This document shows positions 52 to 64,000 of a stretch of 64,000 bases of DNA, piece after piece. A model generated the notes under the pieces. It searched no databases and was not told the DNA's origin. It was given only the letters and a program-made list of their open reading frames with translations. Position 1 is the stretch's first letter. Every line of letters starts with the position of its first letter. The translations under genes and the position numbers were made by a program. Source of the stretch: Malassezia japonica (taxonomy: Eukaryota; Basidiomycota; Malasseziomycetes; Malasseziales; Malasseziaceae); contig NC_083373.1 in the NCBI RefSeq assembly GCF_029542785.1, positions 558,001-622,000 on the forward strand, given 5' to 3'.

Positions 52-1685
52 CTAGGGCGTGTCCGCCGAGACGATGAGGGGAATAGGGGAGATGACCGGA
101 GTGTCTTTTACGACTTCGCCGCTTGCGTGTTCCACGTCGCTTTCGTCCTCGTCGCGCCCTTCTAGTTGGTCGACGTACCACCCGCCGTCGGCACCGGGAA
201 ACTTGTACACATGGCTGTGTGAGAAGAAAAAAATAAAACGACGCACCTCTCGCCCACGCGCTCGGGCTGTGCATCGCTGTGGCTGCCCTCCCAGCCCAGC
301 TCTTTGCCGAGGTACTGCACAATGCCGTCCGAGTCGCCCAACAGCATCACGTCCATGGCCATGTGGGTAATCGGAGTCCGATTCAGCAGCACCACGGGCA
401 CGTTCGAAGGGAGATGCGTCAATAGATCGGCGACCGGTGCGACCTTGAGCGACGTGCCCATCACGAGGATCAGATCGACCTCCTCGCGGTCTGCAAACAC
501 ACACCGGTCAAACTCGTCAGGGAGCTTTTCGCCAAAAAAGGTAATGTCGGGCTTCATGATGCCGTACGCGAGGTCCGACTCGTCTTCCGACTCGTCACCG
601 CCCCACATGGCCGAGGTCTTGGGCCGCTTCGCACGCCGGCGCGCGTCCGCATCTTCACGGCGCGCCGTGCACCTGGGGCACGCCGGTATACGCTTCGCAA
701 GGAGATCGTCGCGGATCACGCTCCCATCCACCTTGTACCCACATGAGGGGTCCGTGCACGTCGCCGTCGCAAACGAACCATGGCACTGGAGCACGCGCGA
801 GATTCCCGCTTTCTGCTCGAGCGTGTCGATATTCTGCGAGTACATGCGCAGGAGCTTACCCCGCTCTTCCAATTGCTTGACAAAGTAGTGCGACGCCGAA
901 GGCTGAAAGTTGGCCGGATAAATCGAGTGGCTGCATAAGACACGCAACGTACGCAAACGAGTAAAAGAGCGACGGATCGCGCAAAAAGACTTCCTTGTCA
1001 AACATGTCCGAGGGATCGTCCAGCTCGTACTTTTCTTCCTGCGCAAGGATCGCGTAAATGCCGTCTTTCGAACGAAAGTCGGGGATGCCGCAGGATACAG
1101 AAATCCCTGCACCACATAGCACGACAATCTTTTTCGAGGTGCGCAAGAGGCGCAGTACGTCCTCGAGTGTATTAAATTCGTCGAGTTTTTGCCGCTGCCG
1201 GAGACTGCGTCAGAACATCGACCTACATTCGGGTGAGCACCATCTTGAGCAGAGGGAGTACCGCATATGGATTCGATTCCGCTTCTTCGAGCACGTTTCG
1301 TGGCTGCGTCAGTCGCCTCACCTACCAGCATCACGCCGAGAGAGAGGAGGAGCGGCACAATCTGGTGAGTCGGACGACGTACCTTTTCTGGCTGCGACAC
1401 CACATGCCGCTGCAAGCACACGAGGATTCCGTGCTCGCGCAAATCGTGAATCACGTCGCTGACCTCTTCGCGCGAAAGCGGGCCGTACTCGGGCTCGCTC
1501 GAGCTCGAGGCGCCTTCTTCTGCGAGCTCAGCGGCGCCTTGCACGCCTTCGCGCTCAAGCTCTTCCATCATTTCTTGCTCGGCCTCCTCTTCCAGTCGAT
1601 CAAGGTCCTCGGAATTGAGGTCATCGTCCAGAGTGGCGAGCTCTGCGAGCGCCTCTGCGCTCGGCCCCACCTCGTTCAGCGTCAT
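52..1685 (-). CDS. HST1: Sir2-family NAD-dependent protein deacetylase (SIR2/HST1, SIRT1 class)
   Basis: NAD-dependent histone/protein deacetylase expected to act in nuclear silencing. Six exons: 1383..1685, 1326..1361, 1227..1303, 953..1204, 247..930 and 52..214 (504 residues). Seen in the sequence: an acidic N-terminal tail rich in Glu; the Sir2 core with GAGISVSCGIPDFRS, QNIDTLE, the catalytic His in CHGSFATATC, two Cys pairs of the zinc module (CTDPSC and CPRC), PDITFFGE and GTSLKV. The zinc module carries a charged insertion rich in Arg and Asp. Introns are 21, 22, 22, 22 and 32 nt; each restores the family reading frame. The 21-nt one (1362..1382) is in frame and stop-free, so it is the least certain. 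The start at 1685 is the first ATG. It diverges from SQS1 across 83 bp. Choice of SIR2 versus HST1 is a family-level call. Confidence 0.88.
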
Positions 1686-1768
1686 GGTGCCCAAAGCGTC
1701 GTTTCGTAAGCAGCAGCCATGTGGAGGAATGCGCGACACGTTCGAGTGGCAACTTGAAACCTACCTGG
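1686..1768. promoter_or_regulatory. Divergent 83-bp promoter between the sirtuin and SQS1
   Basis: The two start codons face away from each other with only 83 bp between them, so both genes must be driven from this gap or from within the neighbouring coding sequence. No clear TATA or CACGTG element is visible. Confidence 0.5.
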
Positions 1769-4678: not shown

Positions 4679-4841
4679 CCACGTGCGTATCTCGGCCGAG
4701 GCTGTCATAGAGCGTTGTGGTAGCGCAGCCAATAAAAGCGGGTACGCATGCGCGGCGGTCGAAGTTACACACCGGCTGCAGGGCTGTTGATCCACAGTTC
4801 GCCACGACGCGCATCGAGGATCCGGCAAGAGCGTGACTGCC

Positions 4842-10888: not shown

Positions 10889-12198
10889 ATGACGGCGCGG
10901 CCGGACGCAGCACAGGCGCAGCTCGCGACGCTGCTGCGCTACCCTTTGCGTGCGGAAGCGCCGATCCAGAATGTCGAGCAGTACGTATCGTGTCTTATCC
11001 AGTGCGAAATCATTTCTCGAGAACGAGTGCCGCGTGCTGGTGATCGGCGCAGGTGGCCTGGGATGCGAGATCCTGGCGAACCTCGCCTTGTCGGGCTTCC
11101 GCCACATTGACGTGATTGATATGGACACGATCGATGTGTCAAACCTCAATCGCCAGTTCCTGTTCCGGTACGTCGACCTGCTCACACAGCGAATCGGACA
11201 TTGGCGCGCCGAAAGCGACCACCGCCGCGGCGTTTGTCGAGCGCCGCGTGCCGGGCGTGCGCATCACGCCGTACGTCGGGCGCATCCAGGACAAGGACGA
11301 GGCGTACTACATGCAGTTCCACCTGATTATCTGCGGCCTGGACTCGGTCGAGGCACGCCGCTGGATCAATGCGATGCTCGTCAACATGGTCGACGAATCG
11401 CATCCCGAGTCGCTCAAGCCGCTCATTGACGGCGGCACGGAGGGGCTGAAAGGCCAGGCGCGTGTAATCCTGCCGACGATCACGAGCTGCTACGAATGCA
11501 GCCTCGACATGCTGCCGAAACGCACCACGTTCCCGATCTGCACCATCGCCAACACGCCCCGCCTGCCGGAGCACTGCATCGAGTGGGCGAGCGTCTTGGA
11601 GTGGCCGCGCGTGCACCCCGGAAAAAAGCTCGATACGGACAACCCCGACGACATCCAGTGGGTGCTCGACACGGCGCTCACACGCGCCGCGTCCTTCCAT
11701 ATCGACGGCATCACCTGGTCGCTTACGCAAGGCGTGATCAAAAACATCATTCCTGCCATTGCCAGTACGAATGCGGTGATTGCAGCGGCATGCACGCAAG
11801 AGGCGTTCAAGATCGCAACCTCATCGGCGCCGTACCTCAACAATTATATGATGTACGCCGGCAACGAGGGCGCGTATACCTATACATTCGACTACGAGAA
11901 GCGCGACGACTGCCCGGTGTGCGGTGGCGAGAGCCGCACGCTCACCGTCCAGCGCACCGCACCCCTCGCACAGGTCCTCGAGATGCTCCAGGAGCTGCCC
12001 GACATTCAGTGCAAGCGCCCGTCGATCGCATCCAGCAGCGGGCCCCTCTACTTCCGAACGCCGGCCGCACTCGAGCAGGCGACCAGTGTGAATCTCGTGC
12101 GCAGCCTGCCCGAACTCGGCGTGGAGGACGGCGAGGTGCTCACCGTGACGGATCCCCACCTGCCATTTGTCCTGAGCGTAGGAATTTCGTATGCATAG
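10889..12198 (+). CDS. UBA3: NEDD8-activating enzyme E1 catalytic subunit
   Basis: Catalytic half of the heterodimeric E1 that adenylates NEDD8/Rub1 and loads it onto Ubc12 for cullin neddylation. Exons 10889..10980, 11003..11167 and 11190..12198 give 421 residues. The nucleotide-binding glycine motif [10 protein letters not shown] and NLNRQFLFR are split from later sequence by the second 22-nt intron. The active-site Cys lies in [19 protein letters not shown]. Two CxxC-type zinc ligands follow (CPVCGG). The C-terminus holds a short ubiquitin-fold region. Both introns are 22 nt and restore the family frame exactly, giving [13 protein letters not shown] across the second. The stop codon overlaps an upstream ATG that could extend the next gene by 16 residues. 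Confidence 0.93.
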
Positions 12199-12238
12199 CC
12201 TCCACAAACGCTCAAATGGCCTTTTTTCTTCCAGTACG

Positions 12239-13403
12239 ATGCAGGACGGCGCAGGGGCCACGGCGCCTTCGGGCGCTCAGTCGGCGGTGCTCATGCGCTC
12301 GGAGCCGGTTCCTGAAGGGACGACACAGGTCAGCGGCCCAGACTTTGATGCGCAGCACCCGAACGACCTCGCTGCATTGCTCGACAGCATGGCAGCGATC
12401 GGCTTCCAAGGCACGTCGGTGCACGAAGCGGTGCGCATCATTGAACAGATGGTAGGTCGCGCTACTAATGCAGCGTACGTGGCGCCTCGAGAACGACCCA
12501 AAGTACAACAAGGACGACGACGAGAACGCGTCGCTGCCCCGCGACGATCCCCAGCACGCGTCACAGACCAAGTGCACCATCTTTCTGGGCTACACGTCGA
12601 ACCTCATTTCGTCGGGTCTACGCGAGGTGATCCACTTTCTCGTCAAGCACAAGTACGTCTCGGCGATTGTGACAACGGCGGGCGGCGTCGAGGAAGACTT
12701 TATCAAGTGCCTCGGCTCGACCTACCTCGGCGCCTTTCACCTGGACGGCGCGACGCTCCGCAAGCAGGGCCTGAACCGCATCGGCAACCTGATCGTGCCG
12801 AACGACAACTACTGCAAGTTTGAGGACTGGGTCATGCCGATCCTCGACAAAATGCGCGCGGAGCAGGACACGGCGCCGCCCGAGTCGGACGGCGAGCGCT
12901 TTGTCTGGACGCCGAGCCGCATCATTGCGCGCCTCGGCCACGAAATCAACGACGAGCGCAGCGTGTACTACTGGGCGGCCAAGAACGACATTCCCGTCTT
13001 TTGCCCTGCGCTCACCGACGGCTCGCTCGGCGACATGATCTATTTCCACTCGTACAAAAACCCCGGCCTGACGGTCGATCTCGTGCGTGATATCCGTCGC
13101 CTGAACGACATGAGCGTCAAGGCGAAAAAGGCAGGCATCATAATCCTCGGTGGCGGCGTGTGCAAGCACCAGATCGCCAACGCGATGCTCTTCCGCAACG
13201 GCGCCGACTACGCCGTGTACATCAACACCGGTCAGGAGTTTGACGGTTCGGATAGCGGCGCGCGGCCCGACGAGGCGATCAGCTGGGGAAAGATCAAGAG
13301 CCATGCCAATGGCGGTGACGCGGTCAAGGTATACTGCGACGCGACCATCATCTTCCCGTTGATCGTCGCCGCGACCTTTGCAAAGGCGCACTGGCAGTCA
13401 TAG
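12239..13403 (+). CDS. DYS1: Deoxyhypusine synthase
   Basis: Transfers the aminobutyl group of spermidine to one lysine of eIF5A, the first step of hypusine formation, in the cytosol. Exons 12239..12451 and 12474..13403 give 380 residues. The NAD-binding and catalytic signature is intact: [34 protein letters not shown], and the active-site lysine in ISWGKIK. The single 22-nt intron uses a GTAGGT donor and a CTAAT branch. Start at 12239 gives the usual N-terminal length; an in-frame ATG at 12191 overlaps the UBA3 stop and is the alternative. Confidence 0.94.
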
Positions 13404-13425
13404 TACACACCTCCATACAACCACC

Positions 13426-14533
13426 ATGCCCCCGACGCGGCGGCCCTGGGCGCGGCTCGCGGCCGTGCTCGTCGCACTGCTCGCCGTAGCGCTCGGCGCT
13501 CTGGTAGGTCGTGTTGCTGACCCAGCCGTACCTCGTGCCCGAGCTGTTTGTGGACAAGGGCCAAATTGACGCGCTCACGCGGTTCTTTGCGCCGACCGAC
13601 GCGGCGAACGCGACCGCCGCGCCGACGCGCTCGCAGCGCGCTGCGGCGCATACAAACAACTGGGCGGTGCTGGTGTGTACCAGCAAGTTTTGGTTTAATT
13701 ACCGCGTACGTCGCTTGGCTTACGCAGCATATGGCAAATACCTTGGGCATGTACCGCACCGTCAAGCGGCTCGGTGTGCCAGACAGCCACATTATTCTGA
13801 TGCTTGCCGACGACGCGGCGTGCAATGCACGGAATCCATACCCCGGCGCTGTGTGGCCTGCCTCGAGCAAGGACCTGGATCTGTACGGTGACGATGTCGA
13901 GGTCGACTACCGCGGCTACGAAGTGACCGTGCCCAACTTTTTGCGCCTGCTCACCGGCCGTGTGCCCGCGCACACGCCGCGCTCCAAGCGGCTCGAGTCG
14001 GACGAGCACTCGAACGTGTTCCTCTACATGACTGGGCACGGCGGCAAGGAGTTTCTCAAGTTTCAAGACTCGGAGGAGATTAGCGCGCACGATCTAGGTA
14101 CGTCTTGTATCTCACGCAGCCGATGCCGTGGAGCAAATGTGGGAAAAGCGGCGGTACCACGAGCTGCTCTTTATGATCGATACGTGTCAGGCGAGCTCGA
14201 TGCTGCAGCCGTTCTACAGCCCCAATGTCCTGGCGGTCGGCAGCAGCCAGACGGGCCAGAACTCGTACTCGGTACGTGGTGTTACTTATGCAGTACAATG
14301 TCGACAGCGGCGTCGGCGTGCCCTTGATTGACCGGTACACGCGTGCGGTGCTTGAATTTATGGAGCATGTGGACCGCACGAGCAACAAGACGCTCCAGGA
14401 CCTCTTTGACAGCGTGGACCCTGCCGCGATCCACTCGGACCCCGACGTGCGCAAGGACCTCTTTGCGCGCGCGATGGACCAGGTGCGCGTGACGGATTTC
14501 TTTGGCTCGGTCGCGCAGGTCGAGCTGACGTAG
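13426..14533 (+). CDS. GPI8: GPI-anchor transamidase catalytic subunit (C13 peptidase)
   Basis: Cysteine protease of the ER GPI-transamidase complex that cleaves the C-terminal signal and attaches the GPI anchor. Five exons: 13426..13503, 13526..13705, 13728..14097, 14120..14271, 14294..14533; all four introns are exactly 22 nt. The product has 339 residues. A hydrophobic signal peptide ([16 protein letters not shown]) is followed by the C13 core with catalytic His in MTGHGGKEF and catalytic Cys in [11 protein letters not shown]. It ends directly after [12 protein letters not shown]. Yeast and human GPI8/PIG-K continue with a tail and a transmembrane anchor; here there is none, and the next gene's stop is only 59 bp on. 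Convergent with VMA16. Confidence 0.92.
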
Positions 14534-14592: not shown

Positions 14593-15284
14593 CTACTTGA
14601 ACTCTTCTGCGGAGCCGGTCTGGGTGAGTACGCGTGGAGACCTACCATGATCAAACCGACTAGTGTTAGTTACAACGAGTCACGTACCGATCAGACCAAA
14701 GAGACCCAGAATACTGCTAAAGACCTCGACCACGAGGATCTTGACAAAGAGCTGCGGGTCCGCAGCATCCGCGACCGCGGCGTTAGCGCCGGTAATGCCC
14801 ACCGACACACCGCACACTAGGTTGCACAGGCCGACGGTGAGGCCGCCCCAGAAGAGCGTGTAGCCGGTCATGTAGTTCTGCGGCGACCACAAGCCGTCGT
14901 ATCCGTTTTCCAAACGTCCCGAGATCTTGGACGAGAAGACGATCGCCATAATCACACCGTAGATCGCGACGACCTCGCAAAAGATAATGCTAATCAGGTT
15001 CTTGGTCGTGATGCGCGGCATGCGCACACCCGCACCCAGGATCGAGGTACCCGTAATGAATATACCCCATCCCGCACCGACGACACTCAGGCCGATGCAG
15101 AACGCAATGCCCATGTTCGCCCACACATAGGGGCTGACGCTTTCCAAGAATCCGCCGACATCAAACTGGTTGCCGGAACCTGGCGTGAGCTCAGACAAGA
15201 CCTACCAGTAAGCACAAGGTAGCCTGCGCCGTACACAAGCACCGCCGCCAGGGCACCGAGTGTGGTATACGCAACCGCACCCAT
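14593..15284 (-). CDS. VMA16: V-type ATPase proteolipid subunit c''
   Basis: Membrane-rotor subunit of the vacuolar H+-ATPase. Exons on the minus strand: 15206..15284, 14688..15179, 14646..14659 and 14593..14619 (203 residues). Several hydrophobic helices are visible, with the buried Glu in the [15 protein letters not shown] helix typical of the c-ring. The third exon is only 14 nt, between introns of 28 and 26 nt. Splicing it in gives the C-terminus [19 protein letters not shown], which closely parallels the yeast Vma16 end; skipping it destroys that frame. The first intron is 26 nt. The start at 15284 is the first ATG that gives the short lumenal N-terminus of the family. Confidence 0.9.
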
Positions 15285-18174: not shown

Positions 18175-18552
18175 ATGCCGGCTGCTTGGGTGACGCTCGT
18201 GAGCGACGTAGGTTCGTAGGCTAATGCAGGATGGCTATCGCTTTGTGATTGATCGGCGGTGGGCCGAGCTGAGTGGCACGATCAAGACGATGCTTTCGAT
18301 GGACTCGGGAGGTACGCTTCTTTGCTCACGCAGGATTCTCCGAGGCAGAAAGCGGCGAGTGCCGGCTGCAGATCCGCGGCCAGGTGCTCGAAAAGGTGGT
18401 CGAGTACCTGCAGTGGCACGCGCGCAACACGGACCGCACCGAGTTTAATATCAAGGACTTTGAGCGGAAAATTCCCCCAGAGCTAGCGCTCGAACTGTAC
18501 GTCGCTCTACTCACCCAGCCTGATGGCCGCCGACTTTCTCGAGGGTGCGTAG
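18175..18552 (+). CDS. ELC1: Elongin C
   Basis: Skp1-fold adaptor of cullin/elongin ubiquitin ligases. Small four-exon gene: 18175..18207, 18230..18311, 18334..18496, 18519..18552; all three introns are 22 nt. The 103-residue product reads AAWVTLVSDDGYRFVIDR at the start and closes with PPELALELLMAADFLEGA, matching the family length (about 100 residues) and the C-terminal helix. Only the spliced form shows the family, as each exon lies in a different frame. In-frame ATGs at 18148 and 18058 would add 9 or 39 residues. Convergent with the CLASP-like gene, 33 bp apart. Confidence 0.87.
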
Positions 18553-18585
18553 CGGCGCTAATCCAGTCTAGCTAGTGTACATATA

Positions 18586-20065: not shown

Positions 20066-21042
20066 TTAAAAGACGAAGGGGTACATGATGCGGCGGTCCT
20101 TGGGGTAGGTGTCCTTGAACTCGCGGCGGTACGCCTTGTGCTTCTTGATGGCCCAGAGGGTCATTTGCACGGTCGAGACGACAGTAAAGAGGAGCGTGGC
20201 GAACGACATGGTGAGCACCGTGACAGCGGACCAGGCGACCATCTCGAAGAAGTAGTTCGGGCAGCTGACCCAGCGGAAGCCGCCGCCGTACGGGATCTTG
20301 CGCACGCGCGTGCCGGCCGGGCGCAGCGAGCGGAGGATCAGGTGCGACTGCAGGTTAAAGAGCTCGGCAAGGAGCCACACGGCGACGCATCCGGCGATAA
20401 AGTAGGGGTCGTCACGCACGGTGCCGCGCACGGCCTTTTCGCCGTGGTACGGCGAGTAGACGCCGACGGCGAGCAGGACACCCGAGAGCAACCAGTAGTG
20501 CGTCGAGTTTTTGATAATGTTAAAGGCGGGCATCGTCGCGTTCGAGAAGCGGTGCACAAACACCGTCTCGAGCTCGCGCTTGATAAAGTGCAGGAGAACC
20601 AGGCCGAGCGTGATGCTGTTTTAGTATCTAAACGTACCTCTGGATGTCGGATACTTGGAAAGGCCGGCCAAAGTACGCCCAGATGCTAGGCGCGGCATAG
20701 TAGATCAGGGGGTGGATGAACAGCGGGCCGAACTGCGTTAGTCGTACCACGTACGTATTCGACCAGGAAGACGGTACGCCACGAGATCTGGGGGCCCAGG
20801 TCCTTGACATAGAGCGTCGCACCGCTCTTCACGCCGAGGTCTCCGAGACGCTTCTCGTCTCCGACCAGCGGCGCCTTGTTCTCGTCGGTAATGCGCTGGC
20901 GATAAATGTTTAGCGGCCTGACGAGGCTGGCAATGCCGTTCTTGAGCGTTGCCAGCGTCGCATCGTCGGGCAGGTTAACTTCCAGGGGGAACTTGCCGCC
21001 CTTGATCGGGCCGCGGTTCTGGATCGTGAGTTGGAATGGCAT
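20066..21042 (-). CDS. TSC13: Very-long-chain enoyl-CoA reductase
   Basis: Last step of the ER fatty-acid elongation cycle, reducing trans-2-enoyl-CoA to make very-long-chain acids for ceramide. Exons 20755..21042, 20638..20732, 20066..20615 (310 residues). The N-terminal part is a ubiquitin-like fold (PFQLTIQNRGPIKGGKFP), then several membrane helices and the steroid-reductase C-terminal domain with FRWVSCPNYFFEMVAW and the YPFVF end. Both introns are 22 nt; splicing restores VEYFGPLFIHPLIYY. It supplies substrate to the ceramide synthase at 42.2 kb, although the two are not linked here. Diverges from the SET gene across 67 bp. Confidence 0.92.
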
Positions 21043-21109: not shown

Positions 21110-22826
21110 ATGGCCCAGGACAAGGAGGCGGAAGGATTCGTGCAGTGGTTCACCACGCACCAGGGGTGGATCGACCCCGGATGCACGCTGCAGCAGGTGC
21201 CGGGGATGGGGCGTGGACTCGTCGCGACGCGCGCGTTTGCGGAGAATGAGCGCGTGTTTGCGATCCCACGCACGATCCTCATGAACCTCGGCACGTCGCA
21301 CCTCGAGCCCGCATGCACGGCGGCGGAGCAAGCCAAGGCCCCGACGTCGGTCAAGTGGGAAGAGCTCGTGGAGCGGGGTTGGTGCCCGCTCATCCTCATG
21401 ATGATGTACGAGCACTGGCGCGCAAAGCACGGCGCGGATCCGTCGTGGGGCCCTTACTTTGGTACGTTTTCTTTCTGACCCAGACGTGATGCCGTCGACG
21501 TTCGAGACGCCCATGTTTTGGACGGCTGACGAGGTCAAGGAGCTCGCAGGCACTGACCTCGTCGACAAGATCGGCCAGGACGAGGCAGAAAAGGACTACC
21601 AAGAATGCGTCCTGCCCTACATCCAGCAGTACCCCCACGTCTTTGTCGGCACCGACGGCGAGAATGCGGCCCAAGAGATTGCGCAGTGGTACAGCCTCGC
21701 CATGTACCACCGCATGGGCTCGTCGATCCTCAGCCGCAGCTTCCACGTGAAGCGCGACCTGAAGCACGCCGAGTCGGACGACGCCGACATCCATTCGAAC
21801 CCCGCCGAGGTGAGCGTCCAGCGCGAGATGCCCGGCGAGGAAGAGGGCGAGGAGTCGGTCCAGGAAATCGCGCAAGGCGATGAGGAAGAGGACGACGACG
21901 AGGAAGAGGAGGAGGAGGAAGACGACGAAAACGTGCGCGACATTTCCATGGTGCCGATGGCCGACATGCTCAACGCGCGCTTCGGCTCGGAAAACACGCG
22001 CCTCTTTTACAAGCGCGAGGTGCTCGAGATGCGCTGCACCAAGCCGGTCGCGGTCGGCGAGCAGATGCTCAACACGTACGGCAATCCCCCCAACAGCGAC
22101 CTCTTGCGCCGCTACGGCTTTGTTGACGAGCCGAACCGCGGCGACCTCGTCGAGCTTCCTGCCGAGCTCGTGGTGGACGCGGCCGTCTCCAAGATTGTGC
22201 TCGCCACCGGCGCGCCACAGGCCCAGATCGAGGCGCTGGCCGCCACGCGCTTCGAATGGGCGTGCACCGAGCTGGGGATGGACGAGGTCTTTTTGCTCTC
22301 GCGCCTGTCCAAGCCCGAGAATGAGGCGCCGTACGGCTCGACGCTCGGCTTGGACGTGACGCAGCCCCCCCAGAGCCAGAAAAAGGCGCTGAGCCGCGCC
22401 GCGTCGCACATTCCCGAGGACGTTGTGAGCTTTGCGCGCCTCCTCTGTGCACCCGAGACGGCCTTTGCCAAGGCGCAAAAGCGCAATGCGCTGCCCAACG
22501 CGCGCCTCGACGCCGTGGAGGAGATCGACGTGCGCGGCCCCCGCCGCACCGAGAACGACGTGCTGCACCTCGCCGTCGCCTCGGTCCTGCTCGAGGCGAT
22601 GCAGAAGCGCCTCGAGTCGTACCCCCTCGCCTGGCAGCAGACGGCCGAGGCGCTGCGTGCGTGTGCCGAGCCGCCCAACACGCCGCACCGCATGGCGCTG
22701 GTCGTGCGTGCGGGCGACGAGACGATCCTCACCGAGCACGTCACCGTCCTGCAGCTGGTCCTCGAGCAGGCGGTCGCCGAGCGCAATCCCCGCCAAGACG
22801 CGGCGAAGAAACAGCGGAAAGCATAG
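21110..22826 (+). CDS. SET-domain lysine methyltransferase of the RKM4/SETD6 type
   Basis: Exons 21110..21461 and 21484..22826 (564 residues), with one 22-nt intron that restores GPYFDVMPSTF. The SET domain is of the Rubisco-LSMT kind, split by a long insertion: GMGRGLVATRAF at the N-terminal side, then ADMLNARF and NTYGNPPNSDLLRRYGFVD, the cofactor and substrate half. A run of Asp/Glu (near residues 240-275) lies inside the insertion. The C-terminal helical domain resembles the substrate-binding domain. Relatives methylate ribosomal proteins such as Rpl42 or, in animals, RelA; the substrate here is not determinable. Convergent with the CRZ1-like gene, 23 bp apart. Confidence 0.82.
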
Positions 22827-27671: not shown

Positions 27672-27849
27672 CTTGGATTTGCAAATGAAACGAGCGCGAA
27701 GAGAACCGCGTAACGGCTGGCACGGCAAAAAGTGCTTCTACGCGCGCCACGTGCATTATGCGCGCTCCTTGCTGTGCCTTGCGTGCCACGCCCGCGTGCC
27801 TTGGATTATGTAATTCATGCACAGGCCAATCCAATCTATGGACAGGGAA

Positions 27850-30549: not shown

Positions 30550-30723
30550 GGCTAGCAAAGTCCCGTATCGACAATAACACGGAAGCAATAAAACACTGCC
30601 TTGGACGTAGCTAAAACGTTCCGGACCGCAACAACAACACGTGGACTTCAGCAGCGCACAGGCGGCGCACGTGATAAAAACCGTAGGCGTGCTATGAACA
30701 GGGCCAGTCGGCTGCGGAGGTAT

Positions 30724-42198: not shown

Positions 42199-43589
42199 AT
42201 GGCCAAAGGAGGGAAAAAGACGGCAAAGAAGGGCGCGGCCGCGAAGCGCTCCGCGCCGCCTGCTCAGGAAAAGCAGGCCACAAAGGAGGCTGCCCAGGGC
42301 CCTGTCACCCCCAAGAATGACTTGTTTTGCATGACGGCGAGCAGTTGGGGAACGGGCCTGTCCCTCCTTGCGTTGGGTACGGTCGCCTTTTTGTGCTGGG
42401 TGACGCAATCGGAGCGCTGCAATACGCTCTCCTACTGGGAGCCGGTGTGGGGCACCTTGGAGAAATACGGGATTGCCTCGCGCCCCACCGATGTGGCCCT
42501 GGCGAATGTCTGCACGACGATCCACGAAGTCACGCGGAGCTGCCTCTTTCTTTCAGGCGGCGTGACCAGTACCCAGGGCAAGGTGCACAACAGTGTTTCG
42601 CATGCGTGGGAGCGTCTCCAGTCGGTGTGGGGCGTAGAGACGACGTCGCATGCCTCGGCCGTGCCCGAGGTGCTGTACGAGCGCGACCGGCGCGACGTTC
42701 TTTTTGCCGTGACGTGGGGTATTGCGCTCCTCGCGCTGCGCGGCCTGCTGATGCACCTCGTGCTGCTTCCTAGTGCGCGCCTCCTGGTGCAGCGTCCGCC
42801 GCCGCAGAAAATGGCACAGATCGGCCACCGCAATAAATACTACCGGAGCATCGACCGGTTTGCCGAGCAGTTCTGGATTGCGATTCTGAACAGTGCCTCG
42901 CTTGTGCTGGTTTTGGTACGTATCCCTACAACTCACCCAGTGCGTTGCCCACCGCCAGTCCTTCTGGGTGTGGAAGCCCGAGCAGCTGTGGATCGGCTAC
43001 CCCCACACGACGATGGATGCGTTGACCAAGGCCGTGTACCTCTGGGAGGCCTCCAACTACATCCACCAGCTCTTTGTGCTCAACATCGAGGCGCGTCGCT
43101 CCGACCATGTGCAGATGATGGTGCACCATATTGTCACGCTATTGCTGATTGGTGGCTCCTACGTCTGTTGCTTCTCCCGTGTGGGACTCGTCATTCTTTT
43201 GCTGATGGACCCGAGCGACATTTTGCTGGCGGTACGTGCTTCTTCTCACACAGCTTGCGAAAATGATCAAGTACATGGGCCTGCAAAATCTCTGCGATGC
43301 GATGTTTGGCGCATTCATGCTCTCGTGGACCTTTACGCGGCACATTGGCTACATGATTGTCATGTGGTCGTGCATCTACGACGCGCCGCGGCTCATCCCA
43401 TATCAGTCGCCGGCGGACCTGCGTACGGGCCACGTCTTTACGTACCCCACGTACGTGGTGTTTATTGCGCTGCTAGCCATCCTGCAAGTCATCCTCCTGA
43501 TCTGGTTCAGCATGATCCTCAAAGTCCTCTACCGCGTGCTGACCAATGCCGGCGCCATCGATTCACGCAGTGACGAAGACTCGGATTAA
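42199..43589 (+). CDS. LAG1: Ceramide synthase
   Basis: Joins a very-long-chain acyl-CoA to a sphingoid base in the ER. Exons 42199..42915, 42941..43231, 43254..43589 (447 residues); introns 25 and 22 nt. N-terminal Lys/Ala-rich tail, then multiple membrane helices. The TLC/Lag1 motif is clear: WLWE-like YLWEASNYIHQLFVLNIEARRSD (only key part cited), the active-site HHIVTLLL double His, and LLLMDPSDILLALAKM across the second intron. C-terminus is acidic (RSDEDSD), as in yeast Lag1/Lac1 where it is a CK2 site. Works downstream of TSC13. Confidence 0.93.
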
Positions 43590-44650: not shown

Positions 44651-47031
44651 ATGAGTGCATCGCCCGAAGGCAAGGGAAGCGGGGGCCGAGTGGCCGAAGC
44701 ACCCCGCGTCATGGGAGCCACGCAGCGGCGCTTTCCCCAGATGTATGCGCGTTTCGAACGCTTGGCGCGGTCGCGCCTAGGGGTATTTGCCCAAGGCGCC
44801 TGGGCGCGGCGCCGGCCCATTGCCTTGGGACTGATCGTAGGTGCTTTTGGGGTACAGTACGTGGTTGCGCGGCGCGAAGCATACGTGCGTGATTATCTAC
44901 ACCCCGATACGTATCTGGTGTGGAAGGTGCACGACGGGAGCGTCGTCGAGGCGCGGCGGCCGCCGTCGGTGAGCCAGCTCTTTGCGCCGTCCGCACCCGG
45001 CGACGAGCCGCCGCGCGTGCTCGAGCTGCACGAGGTGCTCCACGCGCTCAAGTGGGCGCAACGGGATGAGCGCGTGCGCGGCCTCGTCGCCGACTTTAGC
45101 ACGCTACATGTGCCGCCGTCCGTGCCGCCGAAACGCCTTGGACTCGCGCAGATCGAGGAGATCCTGCAGGCACTGGTACGTTGCAAATGCTCACGCAGCA
45201 CGACTTTCGCGAGGCCAAGCGCCAGCAGTTTGGCTCGGATACCACGTCGACCGTCGCGTGGACGGATACCTTTACGAGCCAGGGCGCGTACCTGCTGGCC
45301 TCGGGCTTTGAGCGCGTCTACATGCAGCCGACCGGCCAGGTGCCGCTGGTGGGCCTTGCGTCGCAGATGCCCTTCTTTAAGCGCCTGCTGAACTGGGCCG
45401 GCATCAAGATGCACGCCGAGGCGCGCGAAGAGTACAAGTCGATGGTCAGCCCTTTTACACAGACCGATTCGCTTACCCCGGCGCAGCTCGCGAACCAGGC
45501 CGAGCTGCTCGGCGAGCTGAACCAGGGCTATGCGCATGCCGTGGGCGTGCATCGCTTTTCGGGTGAGGACGCAGAAAAAGCCGCGGCGCGCGTCGCAAAG
45601 CTCGCCTACGACGGACCCTTTTCCGCACGCGAGGCGCTCGAGGCGGGCCTCATTGACGGTACGCGCTTCAAGCGCGACGTGATTGAGGAGCTCGCGCCGG
45701 GCGACGCGTCGAAGCGCTGGAAGACGCTGGCGCACTATGTGCAGCTCAGCGAGCGCAAGCTGCGCGACGTGCTGAGCGACGACCAGGTTGTCAAGGTCGG
45801 TGTCGTCTACCTCCTCGGCACGATCAGCAACGCGTCGGGGCCGCACTCGGTCGGCGCGGCGGTGCAAGGCCTCAAAGAGGCCGCCGAGGCCAAGGAGATC
45901 AAGAGCATCGTGCTGCGGATCGACTCGGGCGGCGGCGATGTCGTCGCAAGCGAGACGCTCTGGGACGCGGTGCGGCGCATCCAGGACGAGCACAAGAAGC
46001 CGGTCGTGTGCTCGTTTGGCAACACGGCCGCGAGCGGCGCGTACTACATCGCGACGGCCGCCGACGCGATCTTTGCGTCGGAGAGCACCGTGACCGGAAG
46101 CATTGGCGTCGCGGCGCTGCGGCCGACGATTACGCAGACGCTCCTCGACCGCCTGCAGCTGCATGTACAGACGCTCTTTACCGGATCCACCTCGCAGAGC
46201 GCGCTGCAGGAGCTCAGCAGCGAGCAGCGCGCGCGTATGGAGCGGCATATTGACGAGACCTATGCCGAGTTCCTTGCCAAGGTGCGCGACGGGCGCAGCA
46301 TGTCGGACGAGGCGCTGCGCACCGTGGCCGGGGGCCGCGTCATGACCGGCCTTGCGGCGTGGACGCTGTGCGACGGCGCGCACGCCAAGGTGCCAGAGCT
46401 GCTTGCCGCGTTCAAGAGCGGGCCGGCGCCCGAGCGCAGCACCTGGGCGACGCACGCGGATGCCAACGCATCCGGCATTGACGCGGTGCACGTTACGCGC
46501 GCCGCCGACACGCCGGCCGACCCTGCGGACGAGACGCCCGACGCGGAGCTTGCGACGGCGCAGGCCGGCGCGCTCGCCGCGGACCTCGCGGCGGTTGCGC
46601 CGCCGTACGGCCGCGGCCTCATTGACGCGATCGGCGGCCTGTGGGAGGCGGCGCTGTACGCCACTGCGCGCACGCTCCAGGTCGAGCTCGAGGAGCTGAA
46701 AGAGCGGCTCGGCCTCGACGACGAAAAAGCGATGCCGCTCCTGCGCCCGCAGTGTGCACGCACCGGCAGCGGCGACGCAGTGGCTCTGTCGGCAGACGTG
46801 CGCCTCGTGCGCTACCCCGCCGAGCGCCCGTTCTGGCAGCGGCTGCAGCAGTATGATCCGCGCACCGAGCCGAACCTCGCGCTGCGCGTCCTCGCCGCTT
46901 TCCTGCAGCCGTGGGTGGCGTGGCAGGCACCGAGCGTCGCCGAGGCGCTCGACGCGCTCGAGGAGCGTGCATCGGGCCTTGCGACGGCGCGTATGCATGC
47001 CGAGTACCCCTTCCGTACCGAGTATCTGTAG
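44651..47031 (+). CDS. Signal peptide peptidase SppA-like, family S49 (67K type)
   Basis: Exons 44651..45175 and 45199..47031 (785 residues), with a 23-nt intron. A single membrane helix (PIALGLIVGAFGVQYVVA) near residue 60 precedes two ClpP/crotonase-like S49 domains in the long E. coli SppA order. The catalytic Lys is in REEYKSMVSPF (about residue 255) and the nucleophile Ser in NTAASGAYYIATAADAIFA (about 453), followed by STVTGSIGV. Both match the Lys/Ser dyad of E. coli SppA, so it should be active. The C-terminal about 250 residues are an added fungal extension. S49 peptidases are chiefly bacterial and plastid proteins; GC content and codon use look like the neighbours, so any transfer is old. 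Confidence 0.88.
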
Positions 47032-48582: not shown

Positions 48583-48725
48583 CGTATCACGTGCCAAAGC
48601 GTGACGCGGCGGCGCGGCGGCGCCGCACGGTATGCGCACGGTGCGTTGTCTGGCTAACGTAGGTGTGGGCGTCGCTGGGTAGCCAACTGCTACGACCGAC
48701 CTCTTTGCGTGTGTATACAAGGACG
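48583..48725. promoter_or_regulatory. Divergent 143-bp promoter between MRS6 and TPP2
   Basis: Contains CACGTG at 48588..48593, only 6 bp from the MRS6 ATG. The TPP2 frame is open upstream without ATG. Confidence 0.45.
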
Positions 48726-55607: not shown

Positions 55608-56847
55608 ATGCAAATGGATACAGAGAATCACTCGGCTCTGTGGGAACAAGCTGCACACTACAAGCAGCGGAACCCTCACCCGAGTGCATTCTCGACCTCA
55701 TCGACTTCGTCGCAGTCCGACGCCTCCTCGACCTTCTCGCAGAACGATGACTCACCCCCGACGAGTCTGTCGAGTCAGAACACCTCGCCGAGCCTCTCGC
55801 AGGCCTCTGGCAAGGGCCGGCGCTCCAGTGAAGAACTGTCGAGCGCGGATGAAGACCTGCACGAACCCTCTTCGGAGCCTGCACTGAAAAAGTGCAAGCT
55901 GCGCGCATCCGACGCGCGCACCGAAGCCGTGGAAACAAAGCCGGGCGCAAATGCGCCCAAAGCCGGGCGCGAATGCGCCGCACTGCGAATGAGCCGCACG
56001 CTCTTCGTGGAAAACTTGGTCGGTACGTATATGGATGAGAGGAGGATGTTAACACGGTATAGATGTGGCCGTGAACACCATTGCCTCGATCTGGGGGCGT
56101 TTTTCGCGTGAAAGCAGGACATCCGCTCGGTGTGCCACGCAAAACAACACGCTCCCCCTGGATCTCTTTGTTCGCGAGATTCTGCGACGTAGCCGCACGA
56201 GCTGCTCGACGCTCCAGGCGGCGCTCCTCTACTGCATCCGTTGCAAGGAAGCGGTGAATGCCAGCGTCGAGAAAATGGCCGACGCCACCGACGGCATCCC
56301 TTCCGACGCGGATGCAGAGCAGGGCCGCCTGCCGTCGCTCTCGCCGCCGCATGCCTTGGGCATGTCGGAGGTGTCGCCCGAGGCAGCTGCCAAGGCCCCG
56401 TCGCTCTCGCCGCTCCTCTGTGGCCGCCGCATGTTTTTGGCTGCGGTCGTCGTCGCGTCCAAGTTCCTCCAGGACCGCACCTACTCGAACCGGACGTGGT
56501 CCAAAATCTCTGGTCTGAATACCAAGGAAATCGAGCAGCTGGAGCGTGTCTTTTTGCACACCATCCAGTACGACTTGGTCGTCGACGCATCGCACTGGTC
56601 GCGCTGGACTTCGGAGCTCTCTTCGAACTGGGGCCGTGCCAAGCAGGCACTGGCGACCCCCGGCGCAGCAGCGCAGCAGCGCATCGACCATGCAGAGATG
56701 AAGAGCGCGCGTTTCGACACCCGCTTGCATCGCGCACACTCGGAAAACGTCCTTGGGCAAGCCCTGCCGTTCGACGCAGGCCTGCTCCAGGCGGACCGGA
56801 CCCGCGCAGCAAAGCCGGGCTTTGCACGACACGAATCGGCCACGTAA
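55608..56847 (+). CDS. PHO85-type (PCL) cyclin
   Basis: Exons 55608..56022 and 56063..56847 (399 residues), one 40-nt intron, longer than most here. The first 125 residues are Ser-rich and contain PEST-like stretches. The cyclin box begins at SRTLFVENLVDVAVNTIASIW and continues with PLDLFVREILRRSRTSCSTLQAALLYC, then MFLAAVVVASKFLQDRTYSNRTWSKISGL and ERVFLHTIQYDLVV, the usual Pcl/Pho80 pattern (only parts cited). An insertion of about 60 Ser/Pro residues interrupts the box after its third helix. Expected to activate a Pho85-like CDK in cell-cycle entry or polarity. A strong hairpin lies in the 3' flank. Confidence 0.83.
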
Positions 56848-56880
56848 CGCTTACGGGCTATGTTTTCATATTTGAGGTGT

Positions 56881-57070: not shown

Positions 57071-58845
57071 ATGAACGGGACTGTAGTGCAACCCGAGATC
57101 CTCTTGAAGGATCGTGCGACGCATCCCCTTTATGGGTATTTCCCGAATCTTGCAGCGGCGATTGTCTTTATCGTGCTGTTCGCAGTGACCTCGGTTGCGC
57201 ACTTTGCCCAGGTGCTCATCCACCGCCAGTGGTGGATGATCATTATGGTCATTGGCACGCTCGCTGAGATGTGCGGTTATATCATGTACGTTTTTTTGCT
57301 GACGCAGGCGCGTCCTCGGCCACAACGATCCTTACGTGCGTGACCCCTACGTGGCGATGGAGTGCTTGTTGATCATCACGCCTTGTTTATTTGCCGCAGT
57401 AGGTTATCTTGTTGCTGACGATTAGGTTCACTTTACGTCGATTGGACGCGTCGCGACCTTGTTCCCACGCAAGTACTCGGTCGTGCGCCCTATCCTCGTG
57501 ATGCCCATCTTTGTTACGATCGACGTCGCGTCGCTCGTGATTCAGGGTATTGGAGCGGGCATGGCCGGTACATCGGACTCTGCCTCGGTACGTTGATTGT
57601 CTCACACAGGATTCGCACAAGGGTTCGATGATTGTGGTCGGCGGTGTCGCTGTCCAACTCGCAGGATACCTCTTGTTCAACATGGTTTTTCTTTCGTTTT
57701 GGCTCAAGGCGCGCAAGGACAACCCCCCGCTGCTGCGCAGGATGTACACCTTCCTCGTTGCTGTTTTCCTTTCAAGCTTGTTTATCGTCCTCCGTTCGAT
57801 CTATCGTGTGATTGAGATGGCTGTGGGGTGGACGGGTGTCATCAACCAAACCGAGTGGGCTTTGTACGTCTTTGACAGCACTTTTGTCTTTATTGCTTGT
57901 GCTATCCTCAACGCTGTGCACCCGGCCATGTACCTGCCCCGCAACTTTAAGTGGACGTACGACCCTGAACGCGATGGTCCTATGACGGAGGAGTACGAAC
58001 TGCCGTCGCGCAAGAATGCCGGGGATTTGGAGGCCGGCGAAAAGGGTGATGCGCCGGACGGCGGTGACACTGGTGCTGGTGTTGGTACTGGTGCTGGTGA
58101 GGCCGGTGCTGCTGGTGCTGCTGGTGCTGCTGGTGCTGCTGGTGCTGCTGGTGCTGCTGGTGCTGCTGGTGCTGCTGGTGCTGCTGGTGGTGCTGGTGGT
58201 GCTGATGCCACTGATGCAGCCGGTGCCACTGATGCAGCCGGTCCTGGTGCCGGCGCCGCTAGCGATTCTGCCGGCGCTGCTGGCGTTGGTGCTGGCGCCG
58301 CTGACGGTGGTGCTGCTGGCGCGGATGCCGCTGGTGCTGACGCGATAGGCACTAATGCTGCCACCCGCGGGGCTGATGCGCCTACCAGTGGCGCGGATGC
58401 GTCTCTCCCTGTCGGTGCCGATTCTGCCACCGGTGCTGCCGACACCGCGACAGGTGCCGCTGCCCACCCTACTGATGCTGTGCCGAGCGGCACTGATACC
58501 GCTGTTGATGCTACTAATGCGGCTGGCCAACCCAACCTGGACACCAGCAACGCAGCGGCGACGGCTGCCACGGGTGCGACGACCGGCGTGGACGCGTCCG
58601 TCCCCGGTGCTCCGGACGCGACCGGCGCCACGGGTCTGCCTACGCACACCGCCGAGGCCACCGAGGCGCCCGCGCCTGTACAGGATGCGCATATCGCTGG
58701 TGTTCCGAGCGCCGAGGCGCATGCCGCCCAAGAGGTGCCCGCTGCCGCATCGCACACTGGCGCGGCCCCTGCGCTGCTGAACGAAACATATGGTCTGGCC
58801 CCTGTTCTCCCGGGCTCTGGTAATGAAGGCGCGCCTGCCGCCTAG
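57071..58845 (+). CDS. RTA1-family multi-pass membrane protein with a long Ala/Gly-rich tail
   Basis: Four exons: 57071..57285, 57308..57398, 57426..57587, 57610..58845 (567 residues); introns 22, 27 and 22 nt. The first 300 residues form about seven helices in the RTA1/Rsb1 pattern: YGYFPNLAAAIVFIVLF near the start, FTSIGRVATL, FVTIDVASLVIQGIGAGM, and RSIYRVIEMAVGW late. RTA1 proteins (Rta1, Rsb1, Rtm1) are linked to lipid translocation and drug resistance. The 270-residue cytosolic tail is Ala, Gly, Asp and Thr, including nine exact copies of a 9-nt unit; such a tail is not usual in the family. The 27-nt intron has an in-frame stop, so retention would truncate. Confidence 0.85.
58105..58185 (+). 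repeat. Nine exact tandem copies of a 9-bp unit (GGTGCTGCT)
   Basis: Encodes Gly-Ala-Ala nine times in the tail of the RTA1-family protein, then decays into GGTGGTGCT and GATGCC variants. A minisatellite likely to vary in copy number between strains. Confidence 0.95.
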
Positions 58846-58935
58846 CTATGACGCATTACACCCAGTTGATAATGCAGGCAACTTATATAAATGTAAGACC
58901 TTTTCTGTGCCTAGCAAGCCTACGACGTAGATGGT

Positions 58936-59909
58936 TTAATCGTCGTCCGTCTGTGTAAGTCGAGCTGTACGTACCTCGGCCAGCTTCGGGGCAAGGTAGT
59001 ACCGCACATGGCCGTTCTCGAACGCGAACTCGACCAGCAGGGGCACCTTGTCAGCCATGTGAAGTGTCACTGCGGACGAGAGCGGGGCCGCCTTGGTAAA
59101 GTTCACGAGGTATTGCACGCTAAAGGTGAGCGCGACCGCCTTCTCGAGCTGGATCTCGACCGGGACGACCGAGCCGCCCGCAGAGCCACCAGCCAGGTCC
59201 GCCTTCCTCTTCTTCGAAGGCTGCTCGCTCTCCTCACCGAGGCCGCCCTCGTCGTCCTCGTCGTCGAGACGCGCGGCCGAGCCCGAGCCCTGCTTGAGCG
59301 TCATGCGCGCGTCGCCGATTTCACCCTCGGTCGAGAAGGTAACGCCCTCCTTGGTGATGGTGATCTTGACACTCTCGCCGACGTTGGACAGGTCACGGCA
59401 GATGCGCGCAAACTCGTTCGAAGACAGCTTAACCACCGCGTCGTACTCCGTGTCGGGGATGCCGAGGTGTTCGGTGTCGATGTCCATGAGCTTCAGGTCG
59501 AATTCACCGATACGGTCCGAGCCTGTGTCAGCGTCGATACGTACTCGTGCCCTCAAAGACGAGGTGCAGACTGTCGGCATTGTCGCCCTTGCGCATGTTG
59601 AGGATATCGTTGTTGTTGGCGCTGCGCAGCACCTTGGTCAGGCTGGTGATCGCCACACCGATGCTCATCGGGCGGTCGCAGCGGTACTCCTCGAAACCGT
59701 CCGCACGCAGCTCCACGGCAGAGAGGGCGACGTGCGAGCTGTCCATCGCTTGGAGGCGCTGGGTAAGCCACGGGACGTACCAGACCCTCTTCGTTGCAGT
59801 CAAAGTTGGCATGCTCCACCAGATCCTTGATAGCGTCCAGGACGCGCTTAAACTACCATAAGCCAAACATACGCACCACCACAGCCTGCTCAATCTTTGC
59901 TTCCAACAT
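58936..59909 (-). CDS. POL30: Proliferating cell nuclear antigen (PCNA sliding clamp)
   Basis: Homotrimeric DNA clamp for polymerases delta/epsilon and partner of FEN1, also in this window. Exons 59877..59909, 59781..59852, 59545..59758, 58975..59522, 58936..58950 (293 residues); introns 24, 22, 22 and 24 nt. Seen: MLEAKIEQAVVFKRVLDAI, LQAMDSSHVALSAVELRADG, LKLMDIDTEHLGIP, FARICRDLSNVGESVKI, LTFSVQYLVNFTKAAPLSS, VRYYLAPKLAE. An extra segment of about 33 residues follows TLKQ (about residue 184): acidic, then PSKKRKAD, then Gly/Ser. The first 24-nt intron ends in an in-frame stop, so it must be spliced. The last 24-nt intron is in frame and stop-free; if kept, the tail gains eight residues. 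Confidence 0.95.
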
Positions 59910-60005
59910 CGTAACACGAGGACACAAGAAACGACGCGTCGCGCGCGCGCCCGAAAGAGGCGCGTTCGGCCGTGCTTAGTCATACACGTGTGGTGGGCTA
60001 TGGGG

Positions 60006-62780: not shown

Positions 62781-62883
62781 GGCATCGGTACGCTCCTCTG
62801 TTGCGCCGCCCTCTCGCTATGCGCACGTGGACTCGGCCGAAACGCGCTCCGCAACACGCGCGCGACCGACACCCCAAGCCACG
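62781..62883. promoter_or_regulatory. Short divergent region between the CorA-like and F-BAR genes
   Basis: If both annotated starts are right, about 100 bp carries both promoters. An ATG at 62779, in frame with the F-BAR gene, overlaps the CorA ATG on the other strand; using both would leave no promoter at all. Confidence 0.35.
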
Positions 62884-64000
62884 ATGCAGAGCAACACGGG
62901 CTACGGGGAGGCGAATGCCGACCCGTACGCATTTTGCAACGCCTTTTGGGTGCGTGGTATGACTTATGCAGGGTAACAACGATGCCGGTTACCATGTGAT
63001 GCAGCATTTTATCAAAAACACCACCAAGACGCTCGAGGATCTGCGTGGGTTTTACCAGGAACGGTACGTATTGTAGCTGATCCAGTGCGGATATTGAGCA
63101 AGAGTACTCCAAGCGCCTGAGCAAGCTGGCCAAGACGGCCCTCGGCAAGCACGAGACGGGGTACGTTGTGCGACTGACACAGCCCGATGCGCCATGCCCT
63201 CGACAAGGTACGCATTGAGACCGAAGCCATGGCGCGCTCCCATGCGCAGCTCGTGCACTCGGTGCGCAAAGAGATCGAGAGCCCACTGTCCGACCTGATG
63301 GCGCGCTCGGAAAATGTGCGCCGCCCAGCGCAGGTCGCGGTGACCAAGCTGTATAAACACAAGCAGATGCAGATGCAGTACGTGCAGCGCTCGCGCGAAA
63401 AATACGAGCAGGACTGCACCAAAATCAACGCATACACCGCACAGAGCAACCTCGTCCAGGGCAAGGAGCTCGACAAGCTCATGGGCAAGCTCGAGCGCGT
63501 CCAGGCGACCGTCGGCCAGAACGACAAGGACTACCAGAGCTACGTCCGCGCACTGCAGGACACGACGTACAAGTGGAACTCGGAGTGGAAGAGCTTCTTG
63601 GATGTGTGTCAGGACGTGGAAGAAGAGCGCCAAGAGTTCCTCAAGACAAACCTGTGGAGCTTTGCCAACGCCATCTCGAGCGTGTGCGTGACGGACGACG
63701 AGGCATGCGAGCGCGTGCGTGTCTCGCTCGAGGACTGCGACTCGATGCGCGACGTCGAGGGCTTTGTGCGCGAGTTTGGCACCGGCGCCGCGATTCCCGC
63801 CGCGCCAGAGTACATCAACTATGCCCAGGGACAGGCCCAGCCCCAGGACGAGCCTGTGTCTGCCGCCCAGTTCCACCGCCTCTCGACGCGCATGTCGGAC
63901 GTGCTCCCGCCGCTTAGCACGGGCACGCCGGTGCCATCGGGCGCCACGCCGTCGCTCCTCGGCGCCACGCCGGGCTTTGGCGCCACGCCGGGGCTCGGGG
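62884..64000 (+). CDS. F-BAR protein of the Cdc15/Imp2/PSTPIP type (partial, runs off the right edge)
   Basis: Membrane-curving scaffold of the cytokinetic ring. Exons 62884..62949, 62972..63063, 63086..63160, 63183..>64000; all three introns are 22 nt. The FCH/F-BAR domain is readable: ADPYAFCNAFWGNNDAGYHV, TTKTLEDLRGFYQERADIEQ, EYSKRLSKLAKTALGK, then a coiled coil. The stretch LWSFANAISSVCVTDDEACE followed by VRVSLEDCD closely parallels PSTPIP and Cdc15, favouring that branch over Bzz1 or Rgd1. After the domain a GATP repeat begins at the edge; an SH3 domain would be expected beyond it. An in-frame ATG at 62779 could add 35 residues. Confidence 0.86.

Follow-up and report, generated by a model that had tools for sequence, protein, structure and literature searches.

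A class of 22-nt candidate introns with a fixed donor-to-branch spacing in the yeast Malassezia japonica

Why would so many candidate introns of a yeast be exactly 22 nucleotides (nt) long, and which of their internal distances is held? The question is raised by a 64-kb stretch of the Malassezia japonica genome (contig C4:558001-622000, hereafter the window, GC content 56-69%), drawn from a 9-contig assembly of 8,433,779 bases, for which the original prediction had counted 51 introns, 35 of them of 22 nt with one rigid internal layout. At the level of sequence, the present analysis confirms that a 22-nt candidate-intron class with a fixed layout is real and assembly-wide. These segments are probably U2-type introns at a lineage-specific minimum, limited by a distance of 16 nt from the donor to the branch A, and from this spacing we infer that donor and branch site would be recognized as one unit.

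The class was searched with a composite pattern, GTRNGY-N7-CTNAY-NYAG, i.e. donor, 7-nt gap, branch motif and acceptor within 22 nt, which has 36 matches in the window, against a mean of 0.12 and a maximum of 2 over 100 shuffles. A strict form, GTACGT-N7-CTNAY-NCAG, gave 2039 matches assembly-wide versus 1 for the reversed pattern used as control, in line with the genome-wide class that had been anticipated. The expected peak in genome-wide lengths is likewise seen by the strict pattern, with 2039 sites at 22 nt versus 509 longer ones, about one in five of the strict class exceeding 22 nt. A 264-kb sample, composed of the window and of twenty 10-kb stretches at fixed coordinates, is uneven, with 30 strict sites in the twenty stretches (for a share of about 48) and 24 in the window (about 15 expected). 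When donor-branch gaps were plotted against branch-YAG gaps over this sample, one cell of the grid dominated, gap 7 with gap 1, holding 80 matches versus 0 in the reversed sequence, and the runner-up cells held 9, 7, 5 and 5. The 22-nt composite word carries 24.5 bits over its 22 positions, an upper estimate as the sites were chosen by motif, which is about the 24 bits required for uniqueness across both strands of 8.4 Mb.

Introns were also called by two decoders. The motif-free decoder combined a three-periodic coding model, trained on long open frames, with introns allowed as any GT..AG segment of 10-150 nt under one flat penalty; the motif-informed decoder had a bonus for the composite and favoured gaps of at least 7 nt and short tails. 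At the lowest penalty, 36 of the 134 motif-free introns are exactly 22 nt, whereas five control dinucleotide pairs gave 0, 2, 1, 3 and 3 of that length; the composite is present in 33 of the 36, and the 22-nt share at higher penalties is 26/82, 17/54 and 14/39. With the motif-informed decoder, 53 introns were called in the window, among which calls of 46, 52, 90 and 97 nt are doubtful and 36 are of 22 nt (the full composite is present in 35, and the remaining one, at 20616-20637, has A at position 18 and fits the single such exception already noticed). The alleged invariance of C14, T15 and A17 holds in all 36. Compared by totals, the list is similar to the earlier one, although it lacks the latter's introns of 27 and 54 nt as well as one of the three listed there at 23 nt. 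Over the 264-kb sample, 77 of 145 introns are of 22 nt and 123 of 21-32 nt, the composite, for which this decoder had its bonus, being present in 76 of the 77. By extrapolation, the assembly would hold some 3,000 composites (2039 x 80/54) and some 5,500 introns (2039 x 145/54). The candidate introns of the window are the following, with the evidence for each in brackets.

215-246, minus strand: 32-nt intron, same motifs (motif-informed decoder)
931-952, minus strand: 22-nt intron, SIR2-like gene (composite, decoder, SIR2 Pfam)
1205-1226, minus strand: 22-nt intron, SIR2-like gene (composite, decoder)
1304-1325, minus strand: 22-nt intron, SIR2-like gene (composite, decoder)
1362-1382, minus strand: 21-nt intron, 16-nt donor-branch distance, 4-nt tail (decoder)
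10981-11002, plus strand: 22-nt intron, UBA3-like (ThiF/E2_bind) gene (composite, decoder)
11168-11189, plus strand: 22-nt intron, UBA3-like gene (composite, motif-free and motif-informed decoders)
12452-12473, plus strand: 22-nt intron, deoxyhypusine synthase region (composite, both decoders)
13504-13525, plus strand: 22-nt intron, peptidase C13 (GPI8-like) gene (composite, decoder)
13706-13727, plus strand: 22-nt intron, peptidase C13 gene (composite, decoder)
14098-14119, plus strand: 22-nt intron, peptidase C13 gene (composite, both decoders)
14272-14293, plus strand: 22-nt intron, peptidase C13 gene (composite, both decoders)
14620-14645, minus strand: 26-nt intron (decoder)
14660-14687, minus strand: 28-nt intron (decoder)
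15180-15205, minus strand: 26-nt intron (decoder)
18208-18229, plus strand: 22-nt intron, Elongin C-like gene (composite, decoder, protein alignment)
18312-18333, plus strand: 22-nt intron, Elongin C-like gene (composite, decoder, protein alignment)
18497-18518, plus strand: 22-nt intron, Elongin C-like gene (composite, decoder, protein alignment)
18545-18566, plus strand: 22-nt intron, Elongin C-like gene, a weaker case, past the alignment and followed by just the final residue and the stop codon (composite, decoder)
20616-20637, minus strand: 22-nt intron with A for Y at 18, steroid-reductase (TSC13-like) gene (decoder)
20733-20754, minus strand: 22-nt intron, TSC13-like gene (composite, decoder)
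21462-21483, plus strand: 22-nt intron (composite, both decoders)
25690-25714, minus strand: 25-nt intron 2, KRE6/SKN1 paralog A (decoder)
25858-25879, minus strand: 22-nt intron 1, KRE6/SKN1 paralog A (composite, decoder)
28321-28342, minus strand: 22-nt intron 2, KRE6/SKN1 paralog B (composite, decoder)
28486-28508, minus strand: 23-nt intron 1, KRE6/SKN1 paralog B, gap 7 and tail 6 by eye (decoder)
31198-31222, minus strand: 25-nt intron 2, KRE6/SKN1 paralog C (decoder)
31366-31387, minus strand: 22-nt intron 1, KRE6/SKN1 paralog C (composite, decoder)
33580-33601, minus strand: 22-nt intron 6, FEN1 (composite, FEN1 alignments)
34150-34171, minus strand: 22-nt intron 5, FEN1 (composite, FEN1 alignments)
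34223-34244, minus strand: 22-nt intron 4, FEN1 (composite, FEN1 alignments)
34355-34376, minus strand: 22-nt intron 3, FEN1 (composite, FEN1 alignments)
34441-34462, minus strand: 22-nt intron 2, FEN1 (composite, FEN1 alignments)
34741-34762, minus strand: 22-nt intron 1, FEN1 (composite, FEN1 alignments)
35260-35281, plus strand: 22-nt intron (composite, motif-informed decoder; the motif-free decoder chose another AG)
36269-36290, plus strand: 22-nt intron (composite, both decoders)
42916-42940, plus strand: 25-nt intron, TLC-domain gene (decoder)
43232-43253, plus strand: 22-nt intron, TLC-domain gene (composite, decoder)
45176-45198, plus strand: 23-nt intron (both decoders)
48641-48662, plus strand: full composite upstream of the start of TPPII, outside coding models, possibly a 5' leader intron or chance (composite)
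56023-56062, plus strand: 40-nt intron (both decoders)
57286-57307, plus strand: 22-nt intron, RTA1-like gene (composite, decoder)
57588-57609, plus strand: 22-nt intron, RTA1-like gene (composite, decoder)
58951-58974, minus strand: 24-nt intron 4, PCNA (decoder, Malassezia PCNA models)
59523-59544, minus strand: 22-nt intron 3, PCNA (composite, decoder, PCNA alignments)
59759-59780, minus strand: 22-nt intron 2, PCNA (composite, decoder, PCNA alignments)
59853-59876, minus strand: 24-nt intron 1, PCNA (decoder, PCNA alignments)
62950-62971, plus strand: 22-nt intron (composite, decoder)
63064-63085, plus strand: 22-nt intron (composite, motif-informed decoder; motif-free decoder, acceptor only)
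63161-63182, plus strand: 22-nt intron (composite, both decoders)

As 22 is 3n+1, each retained intron was expected to shift the frame, and it does so wherever the coding phase could be read: when phase was scored over 90-nt flanks on each side of the composite, 31 of 79 sites with sufficient flank were clear and all 31 showed the +1 shift that goes with taking out 22 nt. Longer flanks gave the same shift in 27/27 (120 nt) and 21/21 (180 nt) clear sites; among 183 control GTACGT sites, 152 were unclear and 31 clear, namely 25 unshifted, 4 at +1 and 2 at +2. Removal of the candidate introns also restores conserved frames gene by gene. The FEN1 gene (33492-34775, minus strand) has six 22-nt introns, and its spliced product, 85% identical to the M. 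brasiliensis protein, aligns with solved FEN1 over residues 1-264 and 308-382 with all six junctions inside. Other Ustilaginomycotina FEN1 models agree at the junctions, that of M. sympodialis having two additional residues at the second one, and those of M. vespertilionis and M. pachydermatis stopping short of the last. For PCNA, with introns of 24, 22, 22 and 24 nt, three of the four junctions lie within the alignment to solved PCNA, and all four are crossed gap-free by the models of M. obtusa, M. pachydermatis, M. vespertilionis and Malassezia sp. CBS 17886. Within 424 bases, the Elongin C-like gene holds four 22-nt introns, three in the aligned part and the fourth just before the stop, and splicing of the SIR2-like gene raises its SIR2 Pfam score from 135.8 bits (longest open frame) to 203.7 bits. 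In the region 10889-13403 (plus strand), the decoder merged a UBA3-like gene (ThiF, E2_bind) and deoxyhypusine synthase via a 46-nt intron, which are probably two adjacent genes rather than a fusion.

Such uniform and very short segments could call to mind processes that are not spliceosomal, such as DNA elimination resembling that of ciliate internal eliminated sequences (IES), tRNA-type endonuclease splicing, programmed frameshifts or plain assembly errors. This is highly improbable: a GT donor, a U2-complementary CTNAY and an AG acceptor follow each other in fixed order, as in U2-type introns, canonical U2 and U6 are present in the genome, longer introns of the same genes bear the same signals, the 31 clear frame shifts all match removal of 22 nt, and a common 24.5-bit word is not what assembly errors would leave. 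IES segments are flanked by TA. A ciliate-type IES was rejected as the segments are retained in the assembly, with GT and AG at their ends.

The best named matches for both FEN1 and PCNA are Malassezia proteins, and TPPII, which shares 98% identity with an environmental protein, is 74% identical to its counterpart in Malassezia obtusa and 68% to that of M. yamatoensis; a record labelled Heliothis virescens FEN1 also ranks among the Malassezia FEN1 matches (50% identity). Some public gene models of the genus are damaged at intron positions. The M. brasiliensis FEN1 model has 8 extra residues at the position of intron 2, which could correspond to a retained 24-nt GT..CTNATNCAG intron, and the M. 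furfur CBS 9595 PCNA model lacks 16 and 14 residues beside two intron positions, probably because gene callers do not expect introns this short. That the damage often falls at these sites suggests that introns are there too, genus-level conservation being judged here from protein models.

It is then conceivable, although rather doubtful, that Malassezia introns are generally like this and have already been described in RNA-seq-based annotations. Relatives' FEN1 and PCNA proteins span the same junctions, with model damage often there, and very short introns are indeed reported for Malassezia (PMC7426719), with a median of 30 nt in M. restricta (PMC9241646), which was annotated with the minimum intron length set to 20 and 15 nt (PMC6473144). 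The original prediction, which knew of no fungal description with one length so dominant, must be amended to that extent. However, the medians of 30 nt (M. restricta) and 40 nt (M. arunalokei; PMC9241646) and the mean of 76-79 nt in M. globosa (PMC4634964) are not those of a 22-nt spike, even if the difference may in part come from how the genomes were annotated. What stands is that neither a dominant 22-nt class nor a fixed spacing was found named in the Malassezia literature searched, which did not take in a likely place for one, an M. sympodialis proteogenomics study.

Which distance is held was examined through short gaps. When the GTACGT donor and the NCAG tail were kept constant, a branch motif 0-6 nt after the donor was matched 5 times assembly-wide versus 5 in the control, gap 7 accounts for the 2039 sites versus 1, and gaps of 8-30 nt for the 509 versus 16; this floor comes from the pattern counts, gaps below 7 being excluded by construction in the motif-informed decoder. 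Among the first 100 listed of the 509 longer-gap sites, 45 are of 23 nt, 14 of 24, 17 of 25 and 24 longer, which amounts to a 22:23 ratio of about 9:1 (80 versus 9 in the 264-kb sample), followed by a flatter tail in the distribution. Of 131 introns of at most 60 nt with CTNAY, called with a decoder that favoured short tails, 105 have 5 nt after the branch A. In the 264-kb sample, 45 introns with CTNAY fall within 21-32 nt without being of 22 nt, and in these the stretch after the branch A is 5 nt in 27, longer in 13 and 4 nt in 5, in keeping with the earlier remark that extra bases lie chiefly between donor and branch. The four 21-nt introns of the 264-kb sample all hold the 16-nt distance with a tail one base shorter. 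Since gaps of 0-6 nt stay at chance, since 21-nt introns keep gap 7 with a shorter tail and since the 23-nt KRE6 intron keeps it with a longer one, what is constrained is the 16-nt spacing of donor and putative branch A, together with a tail of mostly 5 nt, total length being secondary. In other words, the rigid layout initially described is borne out, with the refinement that a donor-branch floor rather than overall length is primary.

Three further properties were considered. An introner burst, i.e. copied introns, was set aside, as 100 listed 22-mers are all distinct and three N7 cores repeat, so that recent copying is not seen. A 'CGC' motif at +7 to +9 of the 22-nt introns was likewise dropped: GTACGT sites outside introns share a similar C at +7, which limits the claim to a lack of A at that position. 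As for avoidance of 3n lengths, no clear signal appeared in 100 listed sites, the decoder being blind to stop-free 3n introns.

On the proposed mechanism, introns would have been shortened to a minimum in which 16 nt separate the donor from the branch A and mostly 5 nt (YNYAG) follow it, so that most introns standing exactly at the minimum would measure 16 + 1 + 5 = 22 nt. Intron definition would then occur in one step, donor and branch site binding U1/U6 and U2 as one compact unit. With three bases and AG after the branch, there is no polypyrimidine tract for U2AF65, which needs at least eight pyrimidines (PMC8363638). For the human B complex, it is estimated that about 52 nt must lie between donor and branch, and 15 nm separate the donor/U6 helix from the U2/branch helix of 14 nt (PMC6692369); within 16 nt, there would presumably be no space for both this U2/branch helix and the extended helix of U6 with the 5' splice site. 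The base at +7 is consistent with the loss of the latter, A being found there in 10 of 22 introns longer than 32 nt and in 8 of 77 of the 22-nt class (Fisher p 0.0006). An A at +7 would be favoured by extended pairing with U1 and U6, and its scarcity in 22-nt introns is as expected if extended 5' pairing had been dropped.

The spike could also be the stationary state of a deletion bias acting at a steric wall, with unselected spacing and no composite recognition, a possibility to which we would give somewhat less than even weight and which overlaps with the minimum-size interpretation, so that the odds of the two do not add to one. The floor at gap 7 and the ordinary U2 and U6 would suit it, as would three adjacent KRE6/SKN1-type beta-glucan genes (25204-33128, minus strand) whose introns share codon and phase and yet vary in length, 22/23/22 nt for the first and 25/22/25 nt for the second. 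However, a one-parameter balance of insertions and deletions predicts a constant ratio between successive lengths, whereas the ratios found are about 0.11 (22 to 23), 0.31 and 1.2, as scaled from the first 100 listed of 509 sites; this is not decisive, as the rates might themselves vary with length. A spike this sharp suggests that, beyond deletion toward a wall, the exact spacing is favoured as well.

The splicing machinery was inspected in the genome, as had been advised. U2 small nuclear RNA (snRNA) lies at C2:763486-763677 (plus strand) with GUGUAGUAUC, and U6 snRNA at C9:407313-407417 (minus strand) with AUACAGAGA, both as in the Rfam consensus; the two are thus canonical at their recognition sequences (standard branch-pairing and ACAGAGA), and CTNAY would be the pairing partner expected for this U2. 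U1 was not found: a covariance search of the assembly (RF00003, E up to 10) gave no match, a loop I pattern had 0 matches, and the usual 5' end, ATACTTACCTG, is absent among 17 assembly matches to ATACNTACCTG, none of which has T at N. Six of the 17 matches, with G at N, read ATACGTACCTG, the exact complement of CAG/GTACGTAT, and may equally be donors on the opposite strand. That the spliceosome would read donor and branch as one word with a 16-nt ruler, dispensing with extended helices and pyrimidine tract, and that the U1 5' end may match GTACGT, is an unlikely extension. The best match for the U2AF large subunit is at C9:362333-363526 (E 3.9e-66, 224.4 bits, covering 32-460 of the 510 profile positions), and a further piece (28.9 bits) follows downstream, up to 363724. 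No match to the RED_N profile was found in the genome, nor in control genomes. A Methyltransf_10 (PF05971) match, which we take to be METTL16-type, is present at C8:266816-267695 (minus strand, E 6.1e-41), although donor position +4 is mostly C (64/77 of the 22-nt class).

Several points weigh against U2-type introns at a minimum size recognized as one unit. We infer excision from RNA from the sequence, and the branch A is a motif call. The U2AF large-subunit match is strong (224.4 bits, below the curated cut-off of 310.3) though the introns offer it no tract. The set of introns longer than 32 nt is small, with 8 of 22 lacking CTNAY and hence some false calls. The frame test left 48 of its 79 sites unclear; the 9:1 drop is based on the first 100 listed of 509 sites and on 80 versus 9 in the sample. 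Three of the 36 motif-free 22-nt calls lack the composite, and 4 of 80 composites were left unplaced in gene models despite the motif bonus. In the motif-free decoder, control dinucleotides gave as many introns overall (124-140) as GT..AG (134), which means that other lengths are mostly noise and that only the 22-nt peak is informative. Dominance of the 22-nt class (77/145) is below that of Stentor or Mikrocytos, and the 15-nt introns of Stentor (PMC9505925) imply that 16 nt is not a universal limit.

A short donor-branch distance or a truncated pyrimidine tract is also the difficulty described for the human introns that depend on Smu1/RED or SPF45 (PMC6692369, PMC8363638), the difference being the roughly 52 nt estimated for the B complex (PMC6692369) versus 16 nt here. 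In Ustilago maydis, EST-supported introns average 169.8 nt over a range of 24 to 1,899 nt (PMC2219887). At 22 nt, the present class stands close to the lower end of known intron sizes. Uniform ultrashort classes, with one dominant length and a fixed branch position followed by a short tail as observed here, are known elsewhere, at a dominance of 93-97% in Stentor and Mikrocytos that the present class does not reach. Chlorarachniophyte nucleomorphs likewise have numerous introns in a narrow range of 18-21 bp (PMC10245619), but in a relict endosymbiont nucleus, slightly shorter, and given there as a range. In Mikrocytos mackini, 217 of 224 introns are of 16 bp and 7 of 17 bp (PMC10245619); they share with the present class their number, highly uniform length and conserved sequence, but belong to a reduced intracellular rhizarian parasite, whereas 22 nt is the length in a yeast with 2039 strict sites. 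In Stentor coeruleus, 92.81% of introns are of 15 nt, where position 10 is the branch A, and the rest are of 16 nt (PMC9505925). The likeness lies in one dominant length, a fixed branch A and 5 nt after it, while the donor-branch distance is 9 nt there versus 16 nt here, and AU-rich introns with no strong branch consensus stand against a strict CTNAY and a dominant GTACGT in a GC-rich genome, where about one in five of the strict class is longer than the dominant length.

Minimum intron size and the distance that limits it form an old question, in our judgement asked mainly of ciliates, nucleomorphs and oyster parasites, which are difficult to manipulate. A Malassezia yeast in which some 2,000 strict sites stand at a sharp floor, beside slightly longer introns and with U2 and U6 of the ordinary kind, would make this floor measurable base by base and open the minimum size of spliceable introns to tests in a yeast. 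Practically, the damaged public models, such as those of M. furfur PCNA and M. brasiliensis FEN1, concern these very sites. A 5-nt tail like that of Stentor, combined with 16 rather than 9 nt between donor and branch, separates two constraints that are usually lumped together as intron length.

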